NCBI RefSeq assembly: GCF_002879855.1 | Contig: NZ_PNYB01000028.1 | Location: forward strand, 1 to 64,000 | DNA: 64,000 nt | Direction: 5' to 3' | Source of the DNA: Trinickia soli | GTDB taxonomy: Bacteria > Pseudomonadota > Gammaproteobacteria > Burkholderiales > Burkholderiaceae | Shown: positions 52,614 through 64,000 of the stretch, in pieces | Position numbering within the stretch: position 1 is the stretch's first letter | How the letters are laid out: every line of letters begins with the position of its first letter | Program-made: the position numbers and the translations under genes | Notes under the pieces: model-generated | What the model saw: the letters and a program-made list of their open reading frames with translations, nothing else | Database searches by the model: none | What the model was told of the DNA's origin: nothing

Positions 52614-54955
52614 CACATCCTCAGTTTTGCATCGACATAGAAGGTGCGCCCTGGATAGGGGTGATAGACGAAGTAGCGCGCATCGAACAGGTTGTCGACG
52701 CCTACGCCGATTTCGGCATGCTTCGCCGGCTTGAACGTGAAGCGGGCATCCGCGACCGTGTACGTGCTCGTGCCCCCGAAGACATCGGGGTTCGCGTCGA
52801 CATTGGCGAGCGTGTTGTATTGCCGCCCCGAATAGCGCGCCGCAAGCGTAAGCGCCATCCGTGCGTCGATGCGATAGGTCGCAGCGAGATCGGCCCGCCA
52901 TAGCGGAATGCGATAGAAGTACTTGCCGATCGATGCCGGGTTCTGCGCATTGGCAAGAATCTTCGACTGGGTGTAAGCGAGGCTCGCGAGCAGATCGAGC
53001 CCGCGTATGCCGACATCCTCGCCCGCGTAGCTGACCTCCACTCCACGTGAACGCACTTTGCCGATGTTCTGAAAACTCGTGACGTTCGGTATCACGGTGG
53101 TATCGGTCTGACTGAAGATCGTGTTCTTGACGTCGTCCTGGAACAGCGAAACGCGCCATACGCCATTCCAATGCGCCCATTCGGCCGTGAACTCCTTCGA
53201 CAGATCGTCTTCGGCGGTGAGATAGGGATTGTTGTTGACGATGGACGAGCCGTTGATCTGCCCTTGGAACAATTCGCTGACAGTCGGGAAGCGGTACGCG
53301 CGCCCGATCGATGCGCGCAGTGTGATGTCATCGGTGACATCGAACGACAGCGATGCTTTCGGCGATACGTGATGCAGATCCGCCTGCGGGTATGGCAGCG
53401 AAGTCGCACCGATTGCCTGGCGCCCACCGTAAGCATTCCAATTTTCGTAACGCGCGCCATAGACGAATTTCCATCGCGGCAGAAAGCGCCAGGCGTCCTG
53501 CACGTAAAGCGCCTGCGTTTGCGTTTTTCCGCCGAACGCATTCGCGAGCGAGGCGGCCGCACCGCTTTGCCAATTCGCCGTGTTATAGGTCTGCGTCGCC
53601 GCGTAGTAATTGTCGTAGTGGTAGCCGAAGGTCAACCCATGGCCGCGCCATCCCGCGTTGCGCGAAGCGGGCGTCCACGTCGCCTTCAGATCGAGTGTCT
53701 TCCAACCGGCGCCGTCGCCGAACGTGACGACCCCGGGGCCGTTGCCGGGGCCGCCCGCATTGGCCGTGCGGGCCTCGCTGCGCGTGACGTCATAGTAAGA
53801 AGCGGTCGCTTCGGCATTCCACCCCTGAACCTGGTGCGTGCGCACCGACACGCCATAGAGCCAGTTTTCGTTGACGCCGAGGCTTGGCGCCAACGCCGCA
53901 GCGGGGATCGCATATTCGTAGCCGCCGATATCGACTTTTCCGCTATAGACCGGGTTGCCGTTCGAATCGGCTAGAAACGTCGATGTGCGGCTGTTATACG
54001 TCTGATGCCAATAGCCGAGCGTGAACGTGCCTTGCACTATGGGCGTGAAATCGTATTGTGTCTTCAGCGTCCATTGATCCTGGATCGTATGTTCGACACC
54101 TTCGCCGTTCACGCCGAGCACGGCGGTCGGCGCATTCGTTTGATTGTTGTAGAAGTACGCCCCCGTCACGGGGATATCGCCTGGCCTCGCGGGCGTCGAC
54201 GATCTCGCGAGCGTCGCGAACTGCAGCGGCTGACTCGTGTTCTCGAGATGATTGACGCCGAGCCGGAACGAGAACCTGCCGATCTTGTCGCCGAGTGTTG
54301 CCGTCGTCTCGCTGCCGTTGAAGTTCGCGTTGACGCCGTACAGGTCGAAGTGCTGCGTGAACCCTTTCACATCCGCCTCGGCCTCGAAGCGCTTGGGCAT
54401 GCGCGTCGAGATCAGCACCGTCGCCCCAAGCGAATTGCCCGGATAAAGCGCGGAAAACGGCCCATAAATAACGTCGACGCGCTCGATCGAATCGGGATTG
54501 ACCATCGACCAGCGCGGCGGAAACGAATAGCTGTTGCCGAGCAGGTTGCTCAGCAGCAAGCCGTCGGCGTAGACGAGTCCGCGTGCGCTTTGTGTGTTGC
54601 TGGTACCGCGCACGGCGATGATTGAATTGAGATCGCCGATGAAGCGTTTGCGCACAGCGAGATTCGGCGTGTACTTCAGCGCGTCTTCGGCATTGACGGC
54701 ATTCCAGTTCGAAAATTGTCTGCGCGTGACGGACTCGACCGTCGCCGGTAGATTCGGATCGACGATCCGGGTCGATGATGATCGCCCCGCATCGGCGCTC
54801 GCCGTGACGACGACGGCCGGCAATGTCAACGGGGCGGCGGTGTCTTCAGCGTGTGCGACGCGCGAGAACAGCGAGACGGGTAGAAGAATGAACGTGACAT
54901 GACGCGCCCGCTTGCGACGGCAAGCAGGCCCGCGATGTAGTGCGGACGGCAGCAT
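52613..54955 (-). CDS. TonB-dependent outer membrane receptor
   Basis: 780-aa TonB-dependent receptor. Signal peptide to AHAEDT; plug domain (residues about 60-180, with NAEDALKYTPNLAVRKR, VRGTSNTQSARGLVYADG and SIERVDVIYGPFSALYPGNS), then a 22-strand-type barrel ending in RTFYVDAKLRM. The usual final Phe is absent, the end being Arg-Met, although the preceding FYVDAKL strand is normal. AGGAAA precedes the ATG. Neighbours DUF2946 upstream and PepSY downstream suggest metal, perhaps copper, or metallophore uptake; the substrate is not proven. Confidence 0.92.
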   Translation of the reverse strand: MLPSALHRGPACRRKRARHVTFILLPVSLFSRVAHAEDTAAPLTLPAVVVTASADAGRSSSTRIVDPNLPATVESVTRRQFSNWNAVNAEDALKYTPNLAVRKRFIGDLNSIIAVRGTSNTQSARGLVYADGLLLSNLLGNSYSFPPRWSMVNPDSIERVDVIYGPFSALYPGNSLGATVLISTRMPKRFEAEADVKGFTQHFDLYGVNANFNGSETTATLGDKIGRFSFRLGVNHLENTSQPLQFATLARSSTPARPGDIPVTGAYFYNNQTNAPTAVLGVNGEGVEHTIQDQWTLKTQYDFTPIVQGTFTLGYWHQTYNSRTSTFLADSNGNPVYSGKVDIGGYEYAIPAAALAPSLGVNENWLYGVSVRTHQVQGWNAEATASYYDVTRSEARTANAGGPGNGPGVVTFGDGAGWKTLDLKATWTPASRNAGWRGHGLTFGYHYDNYYAATQTYNTANWQSGAAASLANAFGGKTQTQALYVQDAWRFLPRWKFVYGARYENWNAYGGRQAIGATSLPYPQADLHHVSPKASLSFDVTDDITLRASIGRAYRFPTVSELFQGQINGSSIVNNNPYLTAEDDLSKEFTAEWAHWNGVWRVSLFQDDVKNTIFSQTDTTVIPNVTSFQNIGKVRSRGVEVSYAGEDVGIRGLDLLASLAYTQSKILANAQNPASIGKYFYRIPLWRADLAATYRIDARMALTLAARYSGRQYNTLANVDANPDVFGGTSTYTVADARFTFKPAKHAEIGVGVDNLFDARYFVYHPYPGRTFYVDAKLRM

Positions 54956-55041: not shown

Positions 55042-55407
55042 TCAGGAAACGAACGGTGGCGCTCTGGGGCGACCGGATGGAAATGCGCCAAGCGGCGTGA
55101 AGCGCACCGATAGCACGGGCACGATCATGACGATCGTCAACGTCAACGGCTGCGCGACAGCCGGCGGCACCGATGGCATCGCAGCATGCGTGGCGAGCAA
55201 ATCGCAATAGCCGCATGCCGATAAGGGATCCGTCGATCCGCCGTGATGCGCGGCATCGGCGGGCGCAACAGCCGAACAGAGCGGCGCGATGGGCGCATCG
55301 GCGCGCGCGGCGATGACGAGCTGACTGATGAGCGGCACGCAAACGACAAGCCACATGGCCATGAGGCCAAGCCATGCGGTCGTGCGAGCGTGTCGTCGAA
55401 GGTTCAT
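55042..55407 (-). CDS. DUF2946-family small protein
   Basis: 121-aa protein with an N-terminal hydrophobic segment (TAWLGLMAMWLVVCVPLISQ) and the family mark SACGYCDLLATHA, a CxxC with nearby His. A second hydrophobic stretch (LTLTIVMIVPVLSV) follows. DUF2946 proteins often sit beside TonB-dependent receptors and copper-related genes. The ATG overlaps the stop of the TPR-glycosyltransferase gene (ATGA), while the TonB-receptor gene begins 86 bp downstream, so it links the two gene sets. Confidence 0.85.
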   Translation of the reverse strand: MNLRRHARTTAWLGLMAMWLVVCVPLISQLVIAARADAPIAPLCSAVAPADAAHHGGSTDPLSACGYCDLLATHAAMPSVPPAVAQPLTLTIVMIVPVLSVRFTPLGAFPSGRPRAPPFVS

Positions 55408-57278
55408 ATCGTCGGAGATGCCTCGGGCGTCGCGGAGTCTAGCATCGGAGCAAGGGGTATGGCCAGCCCGCTTTCGTCGTCTGGGACGGCTCGTGCGGCG
55501 GCTCGTGCGAGGTCGGCGCTCAGCGCTTCGAGCGGCGCGGTCCAATCGCGGAAGGCACGCTGGCGATACAGCTTGATCGTCGGATACCACGGGCTGTCGT
55601 CGCGCCCGGTCATCCAGACCCAGTGCGGATTCACGTCGAGCAGTAACCACGTTGGCCGCCCCAACGCCGCTGCGAGATGCGCCACCGACGTGCAAACAGT
55701 CACCACGAGGTCCAGGTTCGCAATCAGCGCAGCCGTTGCGTCGAAGTCGTTCAACTCGCTCGTTCGATCGATGACATGCAATCCGGCTGTGGCCATTCGC
55801 GCGACGTCCTGCGCGGCGCCGATCTGCAGGCTATACCATTCGACGCCCGCGATGTCGGAGAAGGCGCGAGCATAGCGCTCAGGGTCGATCGCGCGTACCG
55901 GATTGCGCTGATGCGTGAGGCTTCCGCTCCACACCAGGCCCACTTTCAATGCGGCGTTTTGACGCAATTCATCGTGCCAATGCGCGACGCGCGCAGGATC
56001 GGGCGACAAGTACGACGCGGGCGCAGGCAACGATTTGAACGTTACGCCCAGCGCAAGCGGCAAACTCGCAAGCGGGATCTGATAGTCGAACAGCGGCAGT
56101 TCGGCGACGTCGCTCGGCAACACTTGAACGTCATAGGCCGCCAGGCTTCGCTTGAACAATGCGTAGAGCGGCGCAAAACAGCAGCACACCACTTTGCCGC
56201 CGGCTTGGCCCGCCTGCTCGACAAGCCGCGGCAGGAAGCGAATGAATTGAATGGCGTCGCCGTGCCCTTGCTCACCCCACACCAGCAGCGTCTTGCCCGT
56301 CAGCGCCTGACCGCGCCAGCGTTGCTGCGGGCAGAACGCGGCGAGGCCGTCCAATTCCGGCGAGCCGCTCCAGCGCGCCTCGAAGTTGATCCAGCCGTTC
56401 GTGAAATCGCCGCGCATCAACTGCAGCATCGACACCGAGAACTGAATCTTCGGATCGGCGCCCGCCACGTTCGCCGCGCGCACGATCGCGTCAAACGCTT
56501 CGTCCCAAAGCTGGTTTTCGCGGGCGGCGTTGCTCAGTGCGAGTTGCCCCAGCCCGAAGTCGGGCGCAAGCGTGGTCGCACGGCGTGCGGCGAGCAGCGC
56601 TTTGGCCGGCTCGCGCAGTTGGAGGTAGACATTCGCTACGTTCGTCCAGGCGAGATGATGGCTCGGCGTCGCCCGAATCTCCGCCTTCGCCTGCTTCAGA
56701 GCCGCATCGTATTCGCCGCGCGTGTAATGCAGCGCCGCGAGGTTATTGCGCAACATCGGAAGACTGGCGTCGATCGACATCGCGCGCTGATAAGCCAGCA
56801 GGGCGGCATCAAAGGCACCGGCCTGTTGTTGGACGAGGCCGAGCATGAACCACGCGTTCGCCGAATCGGGCGTCAGCTCGCACCAGTCGGTGGCGACAGC
56901 CACGCCCACGTCCGATCGTTGCATCGAATGCGCGAGCGAGGCCCACTCGGAAAGCCAATCGGCTTCACCCGGCATCGCGCGGCGCGCACGCGCGAATGCT
57001 TCGAGCGCACGATCCGACGCTCCCGCCAGCGCCGCCAGACGGGCCGCCTCGACCCAGGCCGGCCCATGAAACGGCGCAACGGCGAGCACACGATCGAGCC
57101 ACGCCTGCGCTTCCTCATAACAGCCGCACAGCCGCAGCAATTGAGCGTGGGCGTACATGGCCTCGGGATTGCCGGGGGTATGCGTCAGCCACTCGGCGAC
57201 GACCGCCGAGGCCTCGATCAATTCCCCCGCTTCGATCTGCGCACGTACCGCCGCAGCCTTCGATGTCGAATCGCTCAT
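55404..57278 (-). CDS. TPR protein with GT9-like glycosyltransferase domain
   Basis: 624-aa cytoplasmic protein. Residues about 15-300 are TPR repeats (PEAMYAHAQLLRLCGCYEEA, ANAWFMLGLVQQQAGAFDAA, AWTNVANVYLQLREPAKALL). Residues about 315-590 form a GT-B glycosyltransferase-like domain of the kind seen in TPR-linked heptosyltransferase/O-GlcNAc-type enzymes: LLVWGEQGHGDAIQFIRFLP, VGLVWSGSLTHQRNP, the nucleotide-sugar region TSVAHLAAALGRPTWLLL and DDSPWYPTIKLYRQ. TPR plus glycosyltransferase is the layout of protein glycosylating enzymes, with TPRs picking the substrate. The trimeric adhesin encoded upstream in the same direction is a plausible substrate (inferred). Confidence 0.87.
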   Translation of the reverse strand: MSDSTSKAAAVRAQIEAGELIEASAVVAEWLTHTPGNPEAMYAHAQLLRLCGCYEEAQAWLDRVLAVAPFHGPAWVEAARLAALAGASDRALEAFARARRAMPGEADWLSEWASLAHSMQRSDVGVAVATDWCELTPDSANAWFMLGLVQQQAGAFDAALLAYQRAMSIDASLPMLRNNLAALHYTRGEYDAALKQAKAEIRATPSHHLAWTNVANVYLQLREPAKALLAARRATTLAPDFGLGQLALSNAARENQLWDEAFDAIVRAANVAGADPKIQFSVSMLQLMRGDFTNGWINFEARWSGSPELDGLAAFCPQQRWRGQALTGKTLLVWGEQGHGDAIQFIRFLPRLVEQAGQAGGKVVCCCFAPLYALFKRSLAAYDVQVLPSDVAELPLFDYQIPLASLPLALGVTFKSLPAPASYLSPDPARVAHWHDELRQNAALKVGLVWSGSLTHQRNPVRAIDPERYARAFSDIAGVEWYSLQIGAAQDVARMATAGLHVIDRTSELNDFDATAALIANLDLVVTVCTSVAHLAAALGRPTWLLLDVNPHWVWMTGRDDSPWYPTIKLYRQRAFRDWTAPLEALSADLARAAARAVPDDESGLAIPLAPMLDSATPEASPTI

Positions 57279-57333
57279 CGCTGAAAGCGCCTCGCGCAGA
57301 CGTGCGAACGTCGCACCGTTTTATTCATCGCGG

Positions 57334-57819
57334 TCACGGTTGACCCGTGCGAGCCTGCGGCGCAACGCCTTGACTTTGCCGCGGCTCGTAGCCGGTGAAA
57401 TGCCAACGACCGTCGCTTCCCAACTGAAAGCTGACTTTTTCATAAACGATGCGCCCGTCGGTGAGCCAAGTGGCGTAATCGACGTTCGCGTACAGGCCGT
57501 CGGGAACGACCTTGTCATGCGTATAGGTCAGGCGGGTGACCGACGCCCACCCACGGTGATCGATCGACCCGACACCTGTGCGCGATTGCGCGAGTCCTTG
57601 TTGGAAGGCGTCTGTCGAATACTTGGCGCGGACGAACGGCGCGGTGTCCTGCCATACCGTCGCGTACTGCCCCGCATCGATCTGTTGCAGCACGCGCTGC
57701 GCATCGCCGAGCAGTTCGTCGGCGGAAGTGCCCGCCTGCGCGCCATGCGCGAGCGCGCACCCCGTTGCGAGCGCACATACGGCCCCGGCCAGCCTGGTCA
57801 CACGGGCGATACCCTTCAT
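57334..57819 (-). CDS. DUF4019-like periplasmic protein
   Basis: 161-aa exported protein (signal MKGIARVTRLAGAVCALATG, cleavage near AHGAQA). The mature part of about 130 residues has LLQ-type opening ADELLGDAQRVLQQIDAGQY, then TVWQDTAPFVRAKY, and ends with a GSDGRWHFTGYEPR strand, matching DUF4019/NTF2-like small periplasmic proteins. The start overlaps the stop of the BamE-like gene (ATGA), so the two are coupled. Function unknown; context suggests a role in export or folding of the adhesin. Confidence 0.78.
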   Translation of the reverse strand: MKGIARVTRLAGAVCALATGCALAHGAQAGTSADELLGDAQRVLQQIDAGQYATVWQDTAPFVRAKYSTDAFQQGLAQSRTGVGSIDHRGWASVTRLTYTHDKVVPDGLYANVDYATWLTDGRIVYEKVSFQLGSDGRWHFTGYEPRQSQGVAPQARTGQP

Positions 57820-58235
57820 TGAACCTTCTCCGTCGTGCCGGCCGTGCCGGCGTCGGCTGCGATCTTAGCAGGCGCGAACCGTTCGCACTGCTGATCGTTC
57901 CACCGCGTTCGACTCACGCGGCTGCGGTCGTCGAATTGAATCTGGTATTCGCACGAAACCGTCTTCTCTTGCGAGTGAAAGTGAAACAGGTAGTTCCAGA
58001 CGCGGACATGGAACACGCTTTCATGAAAATGCGGCGGACCAATCAACGCGTAGACCTGATTCTTGGTCATGCCGGGTTCGATCGTTTTCAGATTGTCGAC
58101 ATTGGGGTACACGCCTTCCGCCGTCGTAGCCATCTCCTGCGACGGGAACGAGGTGTCGGTCGGCCCAACGCATGCGGATAGACCGAGCAGACACGAGAGC
58201 AGTCCAAGGGAGGCCAAAGCGCAGTGTTTGTTCAT
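57816..58235 (-). CDS. BamE/SmpA-like outer membrane lipoprotein
   Basis: 139-aa lipoprotein: MNKHCALASLGLLSCLLGLS then lipobox LSAC. The core IEPGMTKNQVYALIGPPHFH followed by VRVWNYLFHFHSQ and a Cys-Arg pair matches the BamE (SmpA/OmlA) fold, but the protein is not the housekeeping BamE, being placed between a trimeric adhesin gene and accessory genes. It starts 114 nt after the adhesin gene and overlaps the DUF4019 gene. Likely a dedicated outer-membrane assembly helper. Confidence 0.85.
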   Translation of the reverse strand: MNKHCALASLGLLSCLLGLSACVGPTDTSFPSQEMATTAEGVYPNVDNLKTIEPGMTKNQVYALIGPPHFHESVFHVRVWNYLFHFHSQEKTVSCEYQIQFDDRSRVSRTRWNDQQCERFAPAKIAADAGTAGTTEKVQ

Positions 58236-58349
58236 ATTCGATAGGAGTGCGAATCAAATCGCTTCGTGAGAGCCAGGTGGAACGGAAGCGCAAAACACGA
58301 AACACGTTCGCCGCCTCCCATTCCCGCGTTCAACAAAAGCTCAAGAGCA

Positions 58350-61300
58350 TCACCATTGATATCCGGCACCGACCACCGCGCCGTAACTGCCGCGCGTATT
58401 CGTCGAAACGGACGCCTTGTACACCCAGTGATCATTCTCCGAAATCGTCGAGACGCCGAGCGCCTGCCCCGATTGTCCGCGATAGACGCTGCCCGCAATC
58501 GCGACCATGCTGCGTCCGGGTCCTGTCGGCTGTGGCAGGCCGGCGACAGCCATCGCCGTGGCCACGCCGCCGTCGGCATCGCGGCGATACGAGTCGAGAC
58601 TGTTGCGCACGCCCGCAATCTGGTTGTCCGTATAGGTGTTCGCTTGCGAGAGCGTTTGGTTGAGCTGCTGGACATTGACGGCGTCTGTCGGCGCGGTACC
58701 GGCCGAGACGTTGATGACCTGGCGTGTCGACGTGCTCGATCCCACGGCCACGACATCCGCGCGGCCTCCGTCGTTGCTGCCGGAGCCGATCGCGGTCGAT
58801 CCGCTGCCGGTCGCGCTGGACCCAACGCCCACCGCCGTCGAGCCGCTCGCGCTGGCTTGCGCGTTGTTGCCCACGGCCGTGCTGCTGGAACCGGACGCCA
58901 CCGCGCCCGAGCCGCCCGCCGACGAATTCGCGCCGGTGGAGGAAGCAGGTGTGCCGCTGTTGCCGCCGCTGTTCGAACTCGACGAGAAGTTGCCGCCGGT
59001 CGCGATCATCGCCGTCAATTGTTGTTGCACCGCCTGCAACTGCGACACGTTGACGGCATCGGTACCGAGGCGTCCCGCGGCAAGGCCCGTGATCTGACGG
59101 CCACCAACATTGACTTCGCCCATCGACGTTTGCGGACTGCTCAGCCCGTACGCGACATAGTTGGTCAGCGCGCCGATCGTCGTCGACGAGCCCGCTCCCA
59201 ATGCCACGCTATTCGCAAAGGTCGCGCTCGCACCCGAGCCCAGCGCCAGGCTATTGGCAAACGAAGCTTTCGAACCGGCGCCGAGTGCGATGGCATCGAC
59301 GGCGCTGCTCGTCGCGCCCGAGCCGATCGCAACGCCGCCAGCAAATCCGGCGTTCGCGTTTGCGCCTTGCGCGATCGATTGTGCGCCGTTTGCGGTCGAG
59401 CCGCTGCCGAGTGCGATCGCATCGGCCTGCCCCGAATTCGCCGCTTCGCCGATCGCAACACCGCCTGGCGCGTTCTGCCCGACGATGGCACCGTTGCCGA
59501 CGCCGACGCCGTTATCGCCGTTGACCACTGTCGTCGGCCCGACCGCGATCGACTGCGCGCCCACTGCAAGTGAATCGGCCGCCGTCGAATTGGCGTGGAA
59601 GTAGAGCGTCGGCGTAACGGAGAACGACTGCAGCGCACCCGATAGCTGCCTGACGGTGACTGCATCGTTTTGCGCGGTGCCGTCGGCGACGTTCGTCAGT
59701 TGGCGATAGGTTTGGCTGCCCGCTGCCGAATTGCCGAACGAAACCGCACCGAGCAACGTCGCGTCGGTCGTGTTGAACGGAATCGCATGGCTTCCGGCCG
59801 CAATCGAACCTTGCGACGATGCGAGCGTCCGATCCGAGACCGAGCCTGACCCGATCGCCACGCCGCCCGCGACGGACACCGTCGACAGCGAGCCCAGGGC
59901 CATGGCATTGGTCGCTTGCGCTTGCGCGCCGTTCGCTGCCGCAAGACTGTCCGCTCCACTCGCCACCGCGAGCGGCCCGATTGCGACGCTGTCGGTGCCC
60001 GTTGCCTGGCTGTCGGCCGCCGTCGAATCCGCGTGGAAGTACTTGATGCCCGCGCCGTTCTGAATACCGGTGAGGGTCGTCGTGAGGTTCGAGACGTTTT
60101 GATTCGTCGTAAAGAGTTGCGAACCGTTGACCGCATCGGTGCTCGTCGAATTCAGCGCGCCGGGCGCCACGTTGGTGATCGTGTTCGGTCCGGTGCCGCC
60201 GTGGTTGGCGTTATAGGCGCCGGCCCCACCGTTGGCAGTCGGATCCCATTGCAGTGCACTGCTTTGCACCTGAGTGACTTGCGACTCGACCGATTGCAAC
60301 TGACTGACGTTGACCGCGTCGGTCGCGGCCGCGCCGGCCGCGACATTCGTGAGTCGCCGTTCGTTGCCGGCCGAGCCGACCGAGACTTCGCCGACCGGAG
60401 TCGTGCCCGACAGTGCGGCCGTGCCGGGATTATAGGCTGCGAGGCCGAGGTTGGCCGTCGTCGTGGAGTTCGAACCGAGCGCCACCGAGTTCGCTGCCGT
60501 TGCGCGTGCATTGCTGCCGAGCGCGAGCGAATTGGCGCTGCTCGCGGCCGAGCCCGCACCGAGTGCGATGGCGTCGACGGCGCTGCTCGTCGCGCCCGAG
60601 CCGATTGCTACGCCGCCGGCAAAGCCGGCGTTCGCGTTTGCGCCTTGCGCGATCGACTGCGCGCCGTTCGCGGTCGAGCCGCTGCCGAGCGCGATTGCAT
60701 CGGCCTGCCCCGAATTCGCCGCTTCGCCGATCGCAACACCGCCGGGCGCGCTCTGCCCGACGGTCGCGCCGTTGCCGACGCCGACACCGTTATCGCCGTT
60801 GACGACCGTCGTCGGCCCGACGGCGACGGACTCTGCCCCCACGGCGAGCGAGTCGGCCGCCGTCGAATTGGCATGGAAGTACCGCGTCGAGGTGACTGCA
60901 AACGCTTGCAACGCACCGGAAAGCTGCCTGACGGTGACTGCATCGTTTTGCGCGGTGCCGTCGGCGACGTTGGTCAGTTGGCGATAGGTTTGACTGCCCG
61001 CTGCGGAATTGCCGAACGAGACTGCACCGAGCAACGTGGCATCGGTCGTATTGAATGGGATTGAATGGCTTCCGGCCGCGATCGAGCCTTGCGACGATGC
61101 GAGCGGCCGGTCGGAGACCGCGCCCGACCCGATCGCCACGCCGCCCGCAACGGACACCGTCGACAGCGAGCCCAGGGCCATGGCATTGGTCGCTTGCGCT
61201 TGCGCACCGTTCGCTGCGGCGAGACTGTCCATGCCGCTCGCCACCGCGAGCGGCCCGATTGCGACACTGTCGGTGGCCGTTGCCTGGCTATCGGCCGCCG

Positions 61301-64000
61301 TCGAATCGGCGTGGAAGTACTTGATACCCGCACCGTTCTGGATGTTGCTGACCGTCGTCGCCAGATTGGTGACGTTTTGGTTCGTCGTGTTCAGCGAATT
61401 GCCGAGATTCGTGACGTTTTGATTCGTGGTGTTCAGCGAGGTCGTCAGGTTCGAGACGTTTTGATTCGTCGTGAAGAGTTGCGAACCGTTGACCGCATCG
61501 GTGCTCGTCGAAGTGAGCGAGCCGGGCGCCACGTTCGTGATCGTGTTCGGTCCGGTACCGCCGTGGTTGGCGTTATAGGCGCCGGCCCCGCCGTTCGCAG
61601 TCGGATCCCATTGCAGCGCATTGCTCTGCGCCTGTGTCAGTTGAGACTCGACCGATTGCAACTGACTGACGTTGACCGCATCGGTCGGCGCCGCGCCTGC
61701 GGCGACATTCGTGAGCCGGCGTTCATTGCCGGCCGTGCCGACGGAGACCTCGCCGACCGGAGTCGTGCCCGATAGCGTGGCCGTGCCCGGGTTATAGGCC
61801 GCGAGGCCGAGATTGGCCGTCGTCGTCGAGTTCGAACCGAGCGCCACCGAGTTCGCTGCCGTGGCCTGCGCGTTGTTGCCTAGCGCGATCGCATTGGCCG
61901 CTTGCGCTTGAGCGCCGTTGCCGGCTGCCAGACTATCGGCGCCGCTTGCCACCGCGAGCGGCCCGATCGCGACGCTGTCGGTGCCCGTCGCCTGGCTGTC
62001 GGCTGCGGTCGAATTTGCGTGGAAGTACTTGATGCCCGCGCCGTTCTGAATGCTGGTGACCGTGGTGGCGAGGTTCGTGACGTTTTGATTCGTCGTAAAG
62101 AGCTGTGAACCGTTGACCGCATCGGTGCTCGTCGAAGTGAGCGTGCCGGGCGCGACGTTATGGATTTGCGTCGATGCACCGCCCGGATCGAGCGTGATGT
62201 TGGTGAGATCCACCGTGCCGCCGATCATGTCGTATTTGACGGCGTCGTTATTGAGCGTGGTGAACGACGACGACAAACCCGTGAGCGTGGTCGAGATGCT
62301 GGTGACCGCTTGATTCGTCGCAAACAATTGCGAGCCGTTGACGGCGTCGGTGCTCGACGCATTGAGTTGCCCCGCCGCGACGTTCGTGATCTGCCTGACC
62401 GTTGTGCCCGAGCCGACGCTGACGACGCTCGTCGGGTTGCCGCCCGCGAAAGTGACGGTCGCACCGGCAAGCGATGCGCTTGGCGTCGGATTCGGCGCGG
62501 CCGTGACCGAGCCGGCGCCAAGGGCGACATCGTTGCTGTTGTTCGCCACCGCGCCGGAACCGAGCGCGAGGCCGCTCGTCGCCGTGCTCTGGACGATGGC
62601 GCCATTGCCAATCGCCACCGAGCCCGCTACGTTGGCCTGCGATGCGTTGCCGAGCGCGACCGAGCCGGTGCCGCTCGCCACATTGGTATTGCCGATGGCG
62701 ACCGCTCCGGTGCCGTTCGCCGTGTTGTCCGCGCCCATCGTGACGGCGCCCGTCCCGATCGACGAGTTCGGGTCGCCGATGGCGACCGCGCCGTTGCCGC
62801 TTGCCGTCTGCCCTTCACCGAGCGCGACGGCGCCGGTGCCGCTCGTCACCTGCGAATTGTGGCCGCCGGCGATCGAGCCCGTGCCCGCCGCGGCAGCGAC
62901 CGTATTGGTGTCGCCGATGGCAACCGTCGATGCGGCCAATGCCTGGGATGTGTTGCCGAATGCCGTCGCTCCCGTGGCCGAGGCAACGGCTGACGGGCCC
63001 ACGGCCGCGGCATTGAGCGCACTGGCCGTGGACGAGGCGCCAAGCGCCACGCCGTCGATGCCGCTCGCGGTGCTGGCGGCGCCGAGCGCGATCGCCTGGT
63101 TCGCCGACGCCGCGGCCCTGGCGCCGGCCGCGACCGTATCGCCCCCTGTCGCCGACGCGTTGATGCCGATCGCCGCCGAACCCACGCCGGACGCCGTCGC
63201 TCCGGCCGCCAACGCGATCGACGACGTATTCGTGGCTTGCGCGAGATCGCCCAGCGCGACGCCGAACTGCGCCGACGCCGTGGAGTTGACGCCGATCGCG
63301 ATCGAGCTCGTTCCGGAAGCTGTCGCGAGTTGGCCTAATGCCGCGGCAAAAATGCCGCTGGCCGTGGTGTTAAAGCCCAATGCCAGGGACTGCGCGCCCG
63401 TTGCCTGCGTGCCGGACCCTGGGACGCCAGCGGTTCCTCCCGCGCCGATCGCGATGGAGGCCAGGCCCTTCGCGCCGCTGTTGACGCCTATCGCAACAGC
63501 CGAATCCGCGTTCGATAAGGCGCCGCTTCCCAATGCGACGGCCGCCGCGCCAGAGCTCGTCGACTGATTGCCAAGCGCCACAGCGCCCGAATTGCTGGCG
63601 GTCGCGTGATTGCCGAGCGCCGCGGAGAAAGCGCCAGAAGACAATGACCCGAAGCCAAATGCCGCCGCCTGCTGGCCGGACGCGGTTGCGCCATTTGCGA
63701 TCGCCGTAGAGGAAACTCCGCTGGCGCTCGCGCCGCTTCCCATTGCCACAGCGCCAAGTGCCGGGGCATTCGCAGAGTTGCCTATCGCGATACTGAAGTT
63801 TCCAGCCGACGCGGCGAACGCCCCTAACGCAACGGAACTCGTCCCGCCGGCCGTCACGAAGTCACCGAGGGCTGTTGCATTGACCGACGATGCAGTCGCC
63901 GACACGCCGACTGCGACCGCATTGCCCGCGCTTGCGACGGAGCCGCTGCCTGCGTTGTACTGCGCGAGCGCGTACTGGGGAGCGAATAGTCCGCCAAAGC
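58350..64000 (-). CDS. YadA-like trimeric autotransporter adhesin, 5' end outside the window
   Basis: At least 1882 residues are in the window; the frame is open to the right edge, where it still reads as mature sequence (FAPQYALAQYNAGSGSVASA), so the start and signal peptide are missing. The GTG at 63905 is internal, not the start. Order: a long YadA head of left-handed beta-roll repeats (VAIG/ALG...A-T-A-x-G), several neck/stalk modules (TDAVNGSQLFTTNQ, NVAAG...TDAVNVSQLQ), more head segments interleaved, and a C-terminal membrane anchor (QIAGVRNSLDSYRRDADGG, ending GAVVGAGYQW) with a terminal Trp. It forms a trimeric surface fibre. Followed by BamE-like, DUF4019 and TPR-glycosyltransferase genes in the same direction. 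Confidence 0.96.
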   Translation of the reverse strand, partial: FGGLFAPQYALAQYNAGSGSVASAGNAVAVGVSATASSVNATALGDFVTAGGTSSVALGAFAASAGNFSIAIGNSANAPALGAVAMGSGASASGVSSTAIANGATASGQQAAAFGFGSLSSGAFSAALGNHATASNSGAVALGNQSTSSGAAAVALGSGALSNADSAVAIGVNSGAKGLASIAIGAGGTAGVPGSGTQATGAQSLALGFNTTASGIFAAALGQLATASGTSSIAIGVNSTASAQFGVALGDLAQATNTSSIALAAGATASGVGSAAIGINASATGGDTVAAGARAAASANQAIALGAASTASGIDGVALGASSTASALNAAAVGPSAVASATGATAFGNTSQALAASTVAIGDTNTVAAAAGTGSIAGGHNSQVTSGTGAVALGEGQTASGNGAVAIGDPNSSIGTGAVTMGADNTANGTGAVAIGNTNVASGTGSVALGNASQANVAGSVAIGNGAIVQSTATSGLALGSGAVANNSNDVALGAGSVTAAPNPTPSASLAGATVTFAGGNPTSVVSVGSGTTVRQITNVAAGQLNASSTDAVNGSQLFATNQAVTSISTTLTGLSSSFTTLNNDAVKYDMIGGTVDLTNITLDPGGASTQIHNVAPGTLTSTSTDAVNGSQLFTTNQNVTNLATTVTSIQNGAGIKYFHANSTAADSQATGTDSVAIGPLAVASGADSLAAGNGAQAQAANAIALGNNAQATAANSVALGSNSTTTANLGLAAYNPGTATLSGTTPVGEVSVGTAGNERRLTNVAAGAAPTDAVNVSQLQSVESQLTQAQSNALQWDPTANGGAGAYNANHGGTGPNTITNVAPGSLTSTSTDAVNGSQLFTTNQNVSNLTTSLNTTNQNVTNLGNSLNTTNQNVTNLATTVSNIQNGAGIKYFHADSTAADSQATATDSVAIGPLAVASGMDSLAAANGAQAQATNAMALGSLSTVSVAGGVAIGSGAVSDRPLASSQGSIAAGSHSIPFNTTDATLLGAVSFGNSAAGSQTYRQLTNVADGTAQNDAVTVRQLSGALQAFAVTSTRYFHANSTAADSLAVGAESVAVGPTTVVNGDNGVGVGNGATVGQSAPGGVAIGEAANSGQADAIALGSGSTANGAQSIAQGANANAGFAGGVAIGSGATSSAVDAIALGAGSAASSANSLALGSNARATAANSVALGSNSTTTANLGLAAYNPGTAALSGTTPVGEVSVGSAGNERRLTNVAAGAAATDAVNVSQLQSVESQVTQVQSSALQWDPTANGGAGAYNANHGGTGPNTITNVAPGALNSTSTDAVNGSQLFTTNQNVSNLTTTLTGIQNGAGIKYFHADSTAADSQATGTDSVAIGPLAVASGADSLAAANGAQAQATNAMALGSLSTVSVAGGVAIGSGSVSDRTLASSQGSIAAGSHAIPFNTTDATLLGAVSFGNSAAGSQTYRQLTNVADGTAQNDAVTVRQLSGALQSFSVTPTLYFHANSTAADSLAVGAQSIAVGPTTVVNGDNGVGVGNGAIVGQNAPGGVAIGEAANSGQADAIALGSGSTANGAQSIAQGANANAGFAGGVAIGSGATSSAVDAIALGAGSKASFANSLALGSGASATFANSVALGAGSSTTIGALTNYVAYGLSSPQTSMGEVNVGGRQITGLAAGRLGTDAVNVSQLQAVQQQLTAMIATGGNFSSSSNSGGNSGTPASSTGANSSAGGSGAVASGSSSTAVGNNAQASASGSTAVGVGSSATGSGSTAIGSGSNDGGRADVVAVGSSTSTRQVINVSAGTAPTDAVNVQQLNQTLSQANTYTDNQIAGVRNSLDSYRRDADGGVATAMAVAGLPQPTGPGRSMVAIAGSVYRGQSGQALGVSTISENDHWVYKASVSTNTRGSYGAVVGAGYQW
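59283..60062 (-). repeat. Long internal direct repeat in the adhesin gene, copy 1
   Basis: This 780-nt block is nearly identical to 60561-61340, at an offset of exactly 1278 nt (426 codons). It encodes head segment VAIGSGATSSAVDAIALGAGS, the neck QLTNVADGTAQNDAVTVRQL and the KYFHADSTAADSQAT segment. Frame is kept. Differences are scattered and mostly conservative. Confidence 0.9.
60561..61340 (-). repeat. Long internal direct repeat in the adhesin gene, copy 2
   Basis: Second copy of the 780-nt block at 59283-60062, same frame. A third, shorter relative starts around 62029, where the KYFHANSTAADSQAT segment recurs 708 nt further on, so the module has been copied more than once. After copy 2 there is an extra pair of short NTTNQNVTNL repeats (about 61345-61450) absent after copy 1. 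Confidence 0.88.

Follow-up and report, generated by a model that had tools for sequence, protein, structure and literature searches.

A probable maturation set for a large trimeric autotransporter adhesin of Trinickia: a TpgA-N-like lipoprotein, a DUF4019 protein and a TPR glycosyltransferase

Helpers encoded beside trimeric autotransporter adhesins (TAAs) have been described before, the closest being found in the AtaA-TpgA pair of Acinetobacter, in which the gene directly downstream of the trimeric adhesin encodes TpgA, a periplasmic protein with BamE-like and OmpA domains that is reported to work with AtaA (PMC13082670, PMC8151025). TAA-TpgA-like pairs have been reported from many genera including Burkholderia (PMC13082670), and ata and tpgA are described as having been lost together in Acinetobacter (PMC6363060). 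In the SadBA system of Salmonella, too, the trimeric adhesin has a helper of the envelope encoded next to it (PMC8151025). Glycosylation of autotransporters is likewise already known (PMC8151025; PMC4358343). Transferase-like genes with a GT-B-like catalytic domain lie beside autotransporters in the case of the BAHT heptosyltransferases TibC and AAH, and of BimC beside BimA (PMC6439308, PMC4358343), and the HMW1C/NGT N-glycosyltransferases are reported to glycosylate large adhesins in the cytosol before export (PMC8151025). FlmG of Caulobacter, which has N-terminal tetratricopeptide repeats (TPRs) and a C-terminal GT-B domain in ~600 residues, is reported to be required for flagellin glycosylation (PMC7591256). 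Counterparts of several of these parts stand side by side in the stretch of DNA analysed here, bases 1-64000 of contig 24 of the 6.1 Mb genome of Trinickia soli (the window), where a YadA-like TAA is followed by genes for a BamE-domain lipoprotein, a DUF4019 protein and a TPR glycosyltransferase (TPR-GT). The four genes probably form a dedicated maturation set for one large TAA. The DUF4019 subfamily appears to be the novel component, adhesin/TpgA-like pairs and autotransporter glycosylation having been known before. A literature search found no paper tying DUF4019 or TPR-GT9 proteins to trimeric adhesins; a recent survey of trimeric autotransporters may name some of the genes.

The four genes, identified from open reading frames (ORFs) and Pfam, share the minus strand and run in the order adhesin, BamE-domain lipoprotein, DUF4019 protein, TPR-GT:

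58350-64178 on the contig, 58350..64000 in the window, minus strand: YadA-like trimeric autotransporter adhesin with ESPR-type start, head and stalk repeats, and anchor
58353..58535, minus strand: YadA_anchor domain (trimeric beta-barrel) of the adhesin (PF03895, 67.5 bits, cut-off 22.7)
57816..58235, minus strand: BamE-domain lipoprotein, 139 aa, TpgA-N-like, without an OmpA domain (Pfam BamE; PDB sequence match 9vnj_B)
57334..57819, minus strand: DUF4019 protein, 161 aa, with a signal-peptide-like start and a predicted NTF2-like fold (Pfam)
57816..57819, minus strand: stop of the BamE-like gene and start of DUF4019, overlapping by 4 nt (sequence)
55404..57278, minus strand: TPR glycosyltransferase, 624 aa, with a TPR superhelix at ~1-310 and a GT9-type GT-B domain at ~322-597 (Pfam, predicted model)

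An earlier note on this DNA had described an adhesin followed on the same strand by BamE-like, DUF4019 and TPR-GT9-like genes with four-base overlaps or short gaps, and the spacing bears this out: 114 nt between the adhesin and the BamE-like gene, -4 nt between the latter and DUF4019, and 55 nt between DUF4019 and the GT. Because of the 4-nt overlap, translation of the BamE-like and DUF4019 genes is likely to be coupled.

The rear edge of the window cuts the adhesin ORF, which extends 178 nt past it and is complete on the contig with 1,942 aa. It starts with an ESPR-type extended signal peptide, and Pfam gave YadA head and stalk repeats; the anchor was found by the dedicated search, the whole-protein scan having listed none. 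In a PDB sequence search the last 96 residues (58353-58640) matched the Hia structure 2gr7 at 8.6e-21 and AtaA (9vnj_A) at 3.1e-4. By its domains the adhesin is thus an ordinary complete trimeric autotransporter of type Vc, for which trimerisation and self-anchored export are predicted.

Linkage of the helpers to adhesins was surveyed in 150 genomes of the family, which were searched with the three helper proteins and with YadA_anchor, and distances were taken to 154 listed anchor positions; the counts cover listed anchors and matches, and up to 8 GT candidates were scored per genome. Of the 28 DUF4019 relatives with an E-value no higher than 1e-30, 25 had a YadA anchor within 10 kb; the misses were G032 and G133, whose contigs have no listed anchor, and G051, where the anchor is 21 kb off and YadA-like sequence starts ~5 kb from DUF4019. 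Among the GT matches listed, 15 of the 18 with at least 450 bits were within 10 kb (the misses were G068, G075:C98 and, at 10.6 kb, G075:C35), against 3/36 of those with 350-420 bits, every one of which came from a genome with listed anchors. None of the first 65 listed GT matches below 240 bits was so placed, 49 of them being in genomes with listed anchors. BamE-like matches with E up to 1e-9 were within 10 kb in 31 of 54 cases, 48 of the 54 being in genomes with listed anchors. Thirty-eight of these 54 were fetched as 37 loci, of which 36 gave adhesin-like sequence in tblastn, with a weak signal in a few (L088, L110) and a signal-peptide match only in L118; L114 gave none. Close relatives of the three helpers are therefore not equally frequent away from adhesins, and the proposal that the genes form an adhesin-linked set held across the survey.

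The gene order itself, for which a genome survey had also been proposed, was found complete and on one strand in 7/11 same-genus genomes (window included). Four genomes of a Ralstonia group (g25: G043, G067, G077, G096) have adhesin, BamE-like and DUF4019 genes in order, without the GT. The 4-nt overlap of the BamE-like and DUF4019 genes was present in six of the seven same-genus sets, the two genes being 277 nt apart in the seventh. Seven flank queries from the window were compared with the fetched stretches; one of the queries, PepSY, is just 32 aa and incapable of a match. Flanking genes were common to the window, G044, G097 and, on its downstream side, G078, and none of the window's flanking genes was found in L050, L053 and L055 (G059, G106, G114), L050 being nearly without upstream sequence. 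Because these three loci show none of the window's flanks, the set, as judged from its neighbours, holds together at more than one chromosomal site. When codons were compared, for the most part between the window and seven relatives (BamE-like, DUF4019) or six (GT), the ratio of non-synonymous to synonymous substitution rates (dN/dS) was 0.10-0.29 for the three helper genes, a rough figure because dS is often >1. The recurring overlap, the low dN/dS and the recurrence of the order elsewhere confirm, at the level of sequence, that the gene set exceeds chance.

The DUF4019 protein matched PF13211 with 77.2 bits (cut-off 26.5), and its predicted model matched an NTF2-like fold in a structure comparison, the matches being read from VIA-align as a second look at the ranking of Foldseek. 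A sequence profile search of the PDB gave weak matches only, at E 0.015 and above, which look unrelated. SadB is an inner-membrane lipoprotein, whereas the two envelope helpers in the window gave only BamE and DUF4019 in Pfam at E <= 0.01, and the DUF4019 protein has no conserved lipobox (alignment A1, judged by eye). The domain of the SadB family, presumably DUF3251, was not among their matches. A scan of a contig collection with the DUF4019 alignment, which used one peptide pattern and so covers only this subfamily, gave 38 loci in Trinickia, Ralstonia, Burkholderia, Paraburkholderia, Variovorax and a Comamonadaceae metagenome-assembled genome (MAG), several of them being contigs of the 150-genome survey. 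A YadA-like adhesin was present in 37/38, and the other locus (L149) starts at a contig end with an OmpA lipoprotein that elsewhere trails the adhesin. Three layouts were seen: adhesin, short BamE-like gene, DUF4019 and TPR-GT; the same without the GT (L135-L138); and, in Burkholderia and Paraburkholderia, adhesin, an OmpA lipoprotein or none, DUF2827 genes and DUF4019, in many cases followed by DUF2827 and an FkbM-methyltransferase-type gene or by a TPR-GT. In three loci, from the MAG and two Variovorax genomes (L163, L164, L166), DUF4019 and DUF2827 are transcribed divergently from the adhesin. With an adhesin in 37/38 loci across three layouts, the DUF4019 subfamily is found, in this collection, to accompany trimeric adhesins regardless of the other partners. 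Five loci of the weak DUF4019 group (L098-L102) gave no adhesin signal.

Either a TPR-GT or a DUF2827 gene was present in 33/38 of the DUF4019 loci, a TPR-GT of at least 446 bits (tblastn) in 13. A wider reading, in which modules were swapped between lineages (a BamE-like or OmpA tether; a TPR-GT or DUF2827/FkbM) while DUF4019 stayed constant, is put forward only tentatively. DUF2827 (PF10933) occurs as one to four genes in L060 (4384-6701), L083 (5197-8635) and most of L139-L162, several with an FkbM-type methyltransferase gene, and is possibly another adhesin-modifying enzyme family. A gene for a PpiC/SurA-like peptidyl-prolyl isomerase, a candidate periplasmic helper, lies near DUF2827 and TPR-GT in L083 (8632-9528) and L063 (10753-11604; the Pfam scan covered L083 only). 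In Variovorax a 286-aa gene lies directly 3' of DUF4019-DUF2827 (L164 5879-6739, L166 10593-11453), with no Pfam match in the copy scanned, that of L166.

The BamE-like protein scored 66.8 bits in Pfam (cut-off 23.2) and carries the lipobox LSAC. Its best PDB sequence match was 9vnj_B, the N-terminal domain of TpgA (TpgA-N) crystallised with the AtaA anchor, at 1.3e-10; the best housekeeping BamE came at 1.6e-4. Scores against the NCBIfam equivalogs fell below the cut-offs both for TpgA (53.4 bits, cut-off 350) and for BamE (18.3 bits, cut-off 93). Housekeeping BamE was rejected as its identity on the NCBIfam score and the PDB ranking; in sequence the protein resembles TpgA-N, is not filed as TpgA and is a putative binder of the anchor. 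The window differs from AtaA-TpgA in its tether of 139 aa without OmpA, which is below the NCBIfam TpgA cut-off, and in having two extra partner genes. No OmpA peptidoglycan-binding domain was found in the protein, BamE being its sole Pfam match, and longer BamE-like relatives beside other adhesins (L071, L062) carry one. In the loci fetched from Trinickia and the Ralstonia group, the BamE-like genes that precede DUF4019 number 11, and every one of their products is short, with 129-144 aa. The idea that a short BamE-like protein and DUF4019 together substitute for the OmpA domain was dropped as not needed, since DUF4019 is also found beside OmpA lipoproteins. A simulation paper argued that binding of TpgA-N alone strengthens anchoring without peptidoglycan coupling (PMC13082670), which fits a tether without an OmpA domain.

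If tether and anchor are in direct contact, the type of anchor should match the type of tether. A profile of seven anchors was used to find anchors at the ends of ORFs in the loci fetched, and a tree was made of the 56 distinct ones; 21 were followed by a BamE-like gene within 1.5 kb, 20 by an OmpA lipoprotein and 15 by neither. For the 41 BamE-like and OmpA-linked anchors a single change on the tree sufficed, against a mean of 13.9 and a minimum of 9 in 200 shuffles. This suggests that anchor type tracks tether type. Tandem trimeric adhesins of 1,055 and 1,050 aa, then an OmpA lipoprotein and a TPR-GT, were seen in L065 (509-6901).

The TPR-GT gave TPRs and Glyco_transf_9 in Pfam, the latter with 26.9 bits (cut-off 22) over 32 residues and as the sole transferase family at E <= 0.01. 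Its predicted model has a TPR superhelix and a confident GT-B domain that matches a GT9 structure; a PDB sequence profile search with the GT domain gave 0 matches. The score for lipopolysaccharide heptosyltransferase I (NCBIfam TIGR02193) was 18.8 bits, below the cut-off of 185.3. Residues E336, Q337, G338, G340, D341, H456 and D561-S-P-W-Y565 are invariant in 14 adhesin-linked sequences (alignment A4), and the clade has Cys (C529, in VCTSVAHL) where the two most distant homologues of alignment A2 (L126 and L128) have Asp. The adhesin-linked GTs form one clade (SH-aLRT 99), with 22/24 rows linked, against 0/15 of the other rows in the tree. The likeness to FlmG is one of layout only, and the neighbour of the GT in the window is an adhesin whereas the acceptor of FlmG is flagellin. 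A predicted TPR superhelix takes the place of the N-terminal beta-barrel of the BAHT enzymes, and the HMW1C/NGT enzymes differ in that the GT in the window lists only Glyco_transf_9. A role of the GT in glycosylating the adhesin is plausible from the predicted model.

The claim that the locus is a new kind of adhesin export/modification system, also made in the earlier note, was too strong: a TpgA-like partner is known, and one component, DUF4019, appears to be new. Its outer-membrane part is indeed of an adhesin-partner type, but not of a new kind, being nearest to the N-terminal domain of TpgA in a short form without OmpA. Its glycosylating part gained from the TPR superhelix, the GT9-type fold and the conserved motif, and lost from a genome with the GT and no YadA anchor and from the sequon counts, both given below.

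One more gene, which the earlier note passed over, adjoins the set:

55042..55407, minus-strand neighbour of the GT: DUF2946 gene, overlapping the GT stop codon by 4 nt

Behind it the window has a TonB receptor and a PepSY_TM gene. This cluster was rejected as a member of the set, since of eight same-genus loci (the seven sets and L054) just two, those of the window and G044, gave matches to DUF2946 and the TonB receptor behind the GT. The coding strand showed no terminator-like site from position 54799 to 65499 (the scan found 4 in all, 9.8 expected), which is compatible with a single transcript and proves nothing. The promoter scan found 1 (1.9 expected) and the Rfam scan 0 matches. An ORF like the C-terminus of an RHS-type protein, judged by eye, lies beyond the window near the contig end (G000:C24 69272-69967, L002).

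Gene content, order, overlap, sequence constraint and adhesin linkage are observed and the folds are predicted; the biochemical steps of a dedicated maturation set are inferred from them. In the cytosol the TPR superhelix would bind the adhesin passenger and the GT9-type domain would add sugar, by analogy with FlmG and flagellins. After Sec export the NTF2-like periplasmic DUF4019 protein, whose synthesis would keep pace with that of the BamE-like protein, may escort or handle the passenger or the anchor before insertion into the outer membrane. The BamE-like lipoprotein, on the inner leaflet of the outer membrane, would then bind the periplasmic face of the anchor barrel, assist its assembly and hold it, in the way of its homologue TpgA-N with AtaA, without a peptidoglycan-binding domain.

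Several observations weigh against this account. The four remaining same-genus genomes have either the GT only (G068) or YadA anchors and no DUF4019 relative at E <= 0.001 (G025, G088, G122), and the 20-kb loci of the four Ralstonia-group genomes gave no GT match. In G068 an intact 603-aa GT (L054 9865-11676), constrained like the other GTs by dN/dS, lies behind the upstream neighbours of the window's set (a class-III aminotransferase and a CMD-like gene); adhesin, BamE-like and DUF4019 genes are absent from the locus, and no YadA anchor was found genome-wide at E <= 0.001. Either there was a recent loss or the GT has another acceptor, so that it need not serve the adhesin alone. The clade rule for GTs is not clean either, because GTs of the second group (350-420 bits) also adjoin adhesins in three genomes. 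Sequons exceed expectation in the adhesin of the window (43 observed, 34 expected) and also in Ralstonia-group adhesins from sets without a GT (40/31, 28/23, 39/32); with the excess equal with and without a linked GT, sequon content was rejected as evidence of N-glycosylation. Serine makes up 12.5-13.2% of six same-genus adhesins against 10.2-11.1% of three from the Ralstonia group, in a small sample of related proteins. The DUF4019 control of the survey is weak: distant DUF4019 matches were near an anchor in 0/20 cases, only 6 of the 20 being in genomes with listed anchors. Weaker BamE matches, which are read here as mostly housekeeping BamE, were so placed in 0 of the first 50 listed, only 23 of them in such genomes. 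The Fisher p-values (1e-10 for DUF4019, 6e-8 for the GT at 15/18 vs 3/36, 4e-12 for BamE) describe the contrast and are not probabilities, because closely related genomes do not give independent counts and the genomes behind two of the controls are partly anchorless. In the anchor tree the dividing branch has 56% support from 83 columns and near copies inflate the contrast, while divergent anchors beside BamE-like genes (e.g. L074 and L116, 32% and 29% identical to that of the window) were not picked up by the profile and stand outside the tree.

Some of these points would suit a TAA-TpgA-type pair with mere neighbours, in which the BamE-like protein alone serves the adhesin, a different surface protein or glycan is the target of the GT, DUF4019 has a general envelope function and their nearness is historical. 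Such pairs are reported from many genera, as cited above for Burkholderia, G068 keeps its GT without a detected anchor, the Ralstonia-group loci are without one, and DUF2946, clearly a mere neighbour, is joined to the GT of the window just as tightly. However, close DUF4019 and GT relatives also adjoin adhesins in loci where no BamE-like gene was found (Burkholderia, Paraburkholderia, Variovorax), and this explanation is considered unlikely. The TPR-GT could alternatively be a true partner of the adhesin that does not glycosylate, acting as a cytosolic chaperone or targeting factor. BimC, which is heptosyltransferase-like and has its gene next to that of BimA, a trimeric autotransporter, reportedly shows no transferase activity (PMC6439308), so a position beside an adhesin is no proof of glycosylation; the replacement of Asp by C529 in the clade and the uninformative sequon content point the same way. 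Set against these are the motif residues invariant in 14 sequences, the confidently predicted GT-B domain with its match to GT9, the constraint on the gene and the need for FlmG, of the same layout, in flagellin glycosylation (PMC7591256), which make a non-glycosylating partner improbable. That DUF4019 works on the glycosylation side, binding or proofreading the glycosylated passenger, rather than in export would accord with the 33/38 loci that have a TPR-GT or DUF2827 gene and with the 4-nt overlap of DUF4019 and DUF2827 in L166 (Variovorax), but a transferase role of DUF2827 is a guess and L135-L138 and L165 have DUF4019 and an adhesin without such a gene in the locus, and it is considered improbable.

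A dedicated maturation set for one large TAA remains the favoured explanation. It bears on how autotransporters, formerly taken to be self-exporting, are helped, which is an open field. The set gives DUF4019 a testable role as an adhesin partner and provides naturally occurring tethers that either have or lack a peptidoglycan-binding domain, and it suggests that the type of anchor barrel and the type of tether evolve together. Glycosylation of adhesins in the Burkholderiaceae would become directly testable, in environmental laboratory strains of Trinickia or Paraburkholderia.

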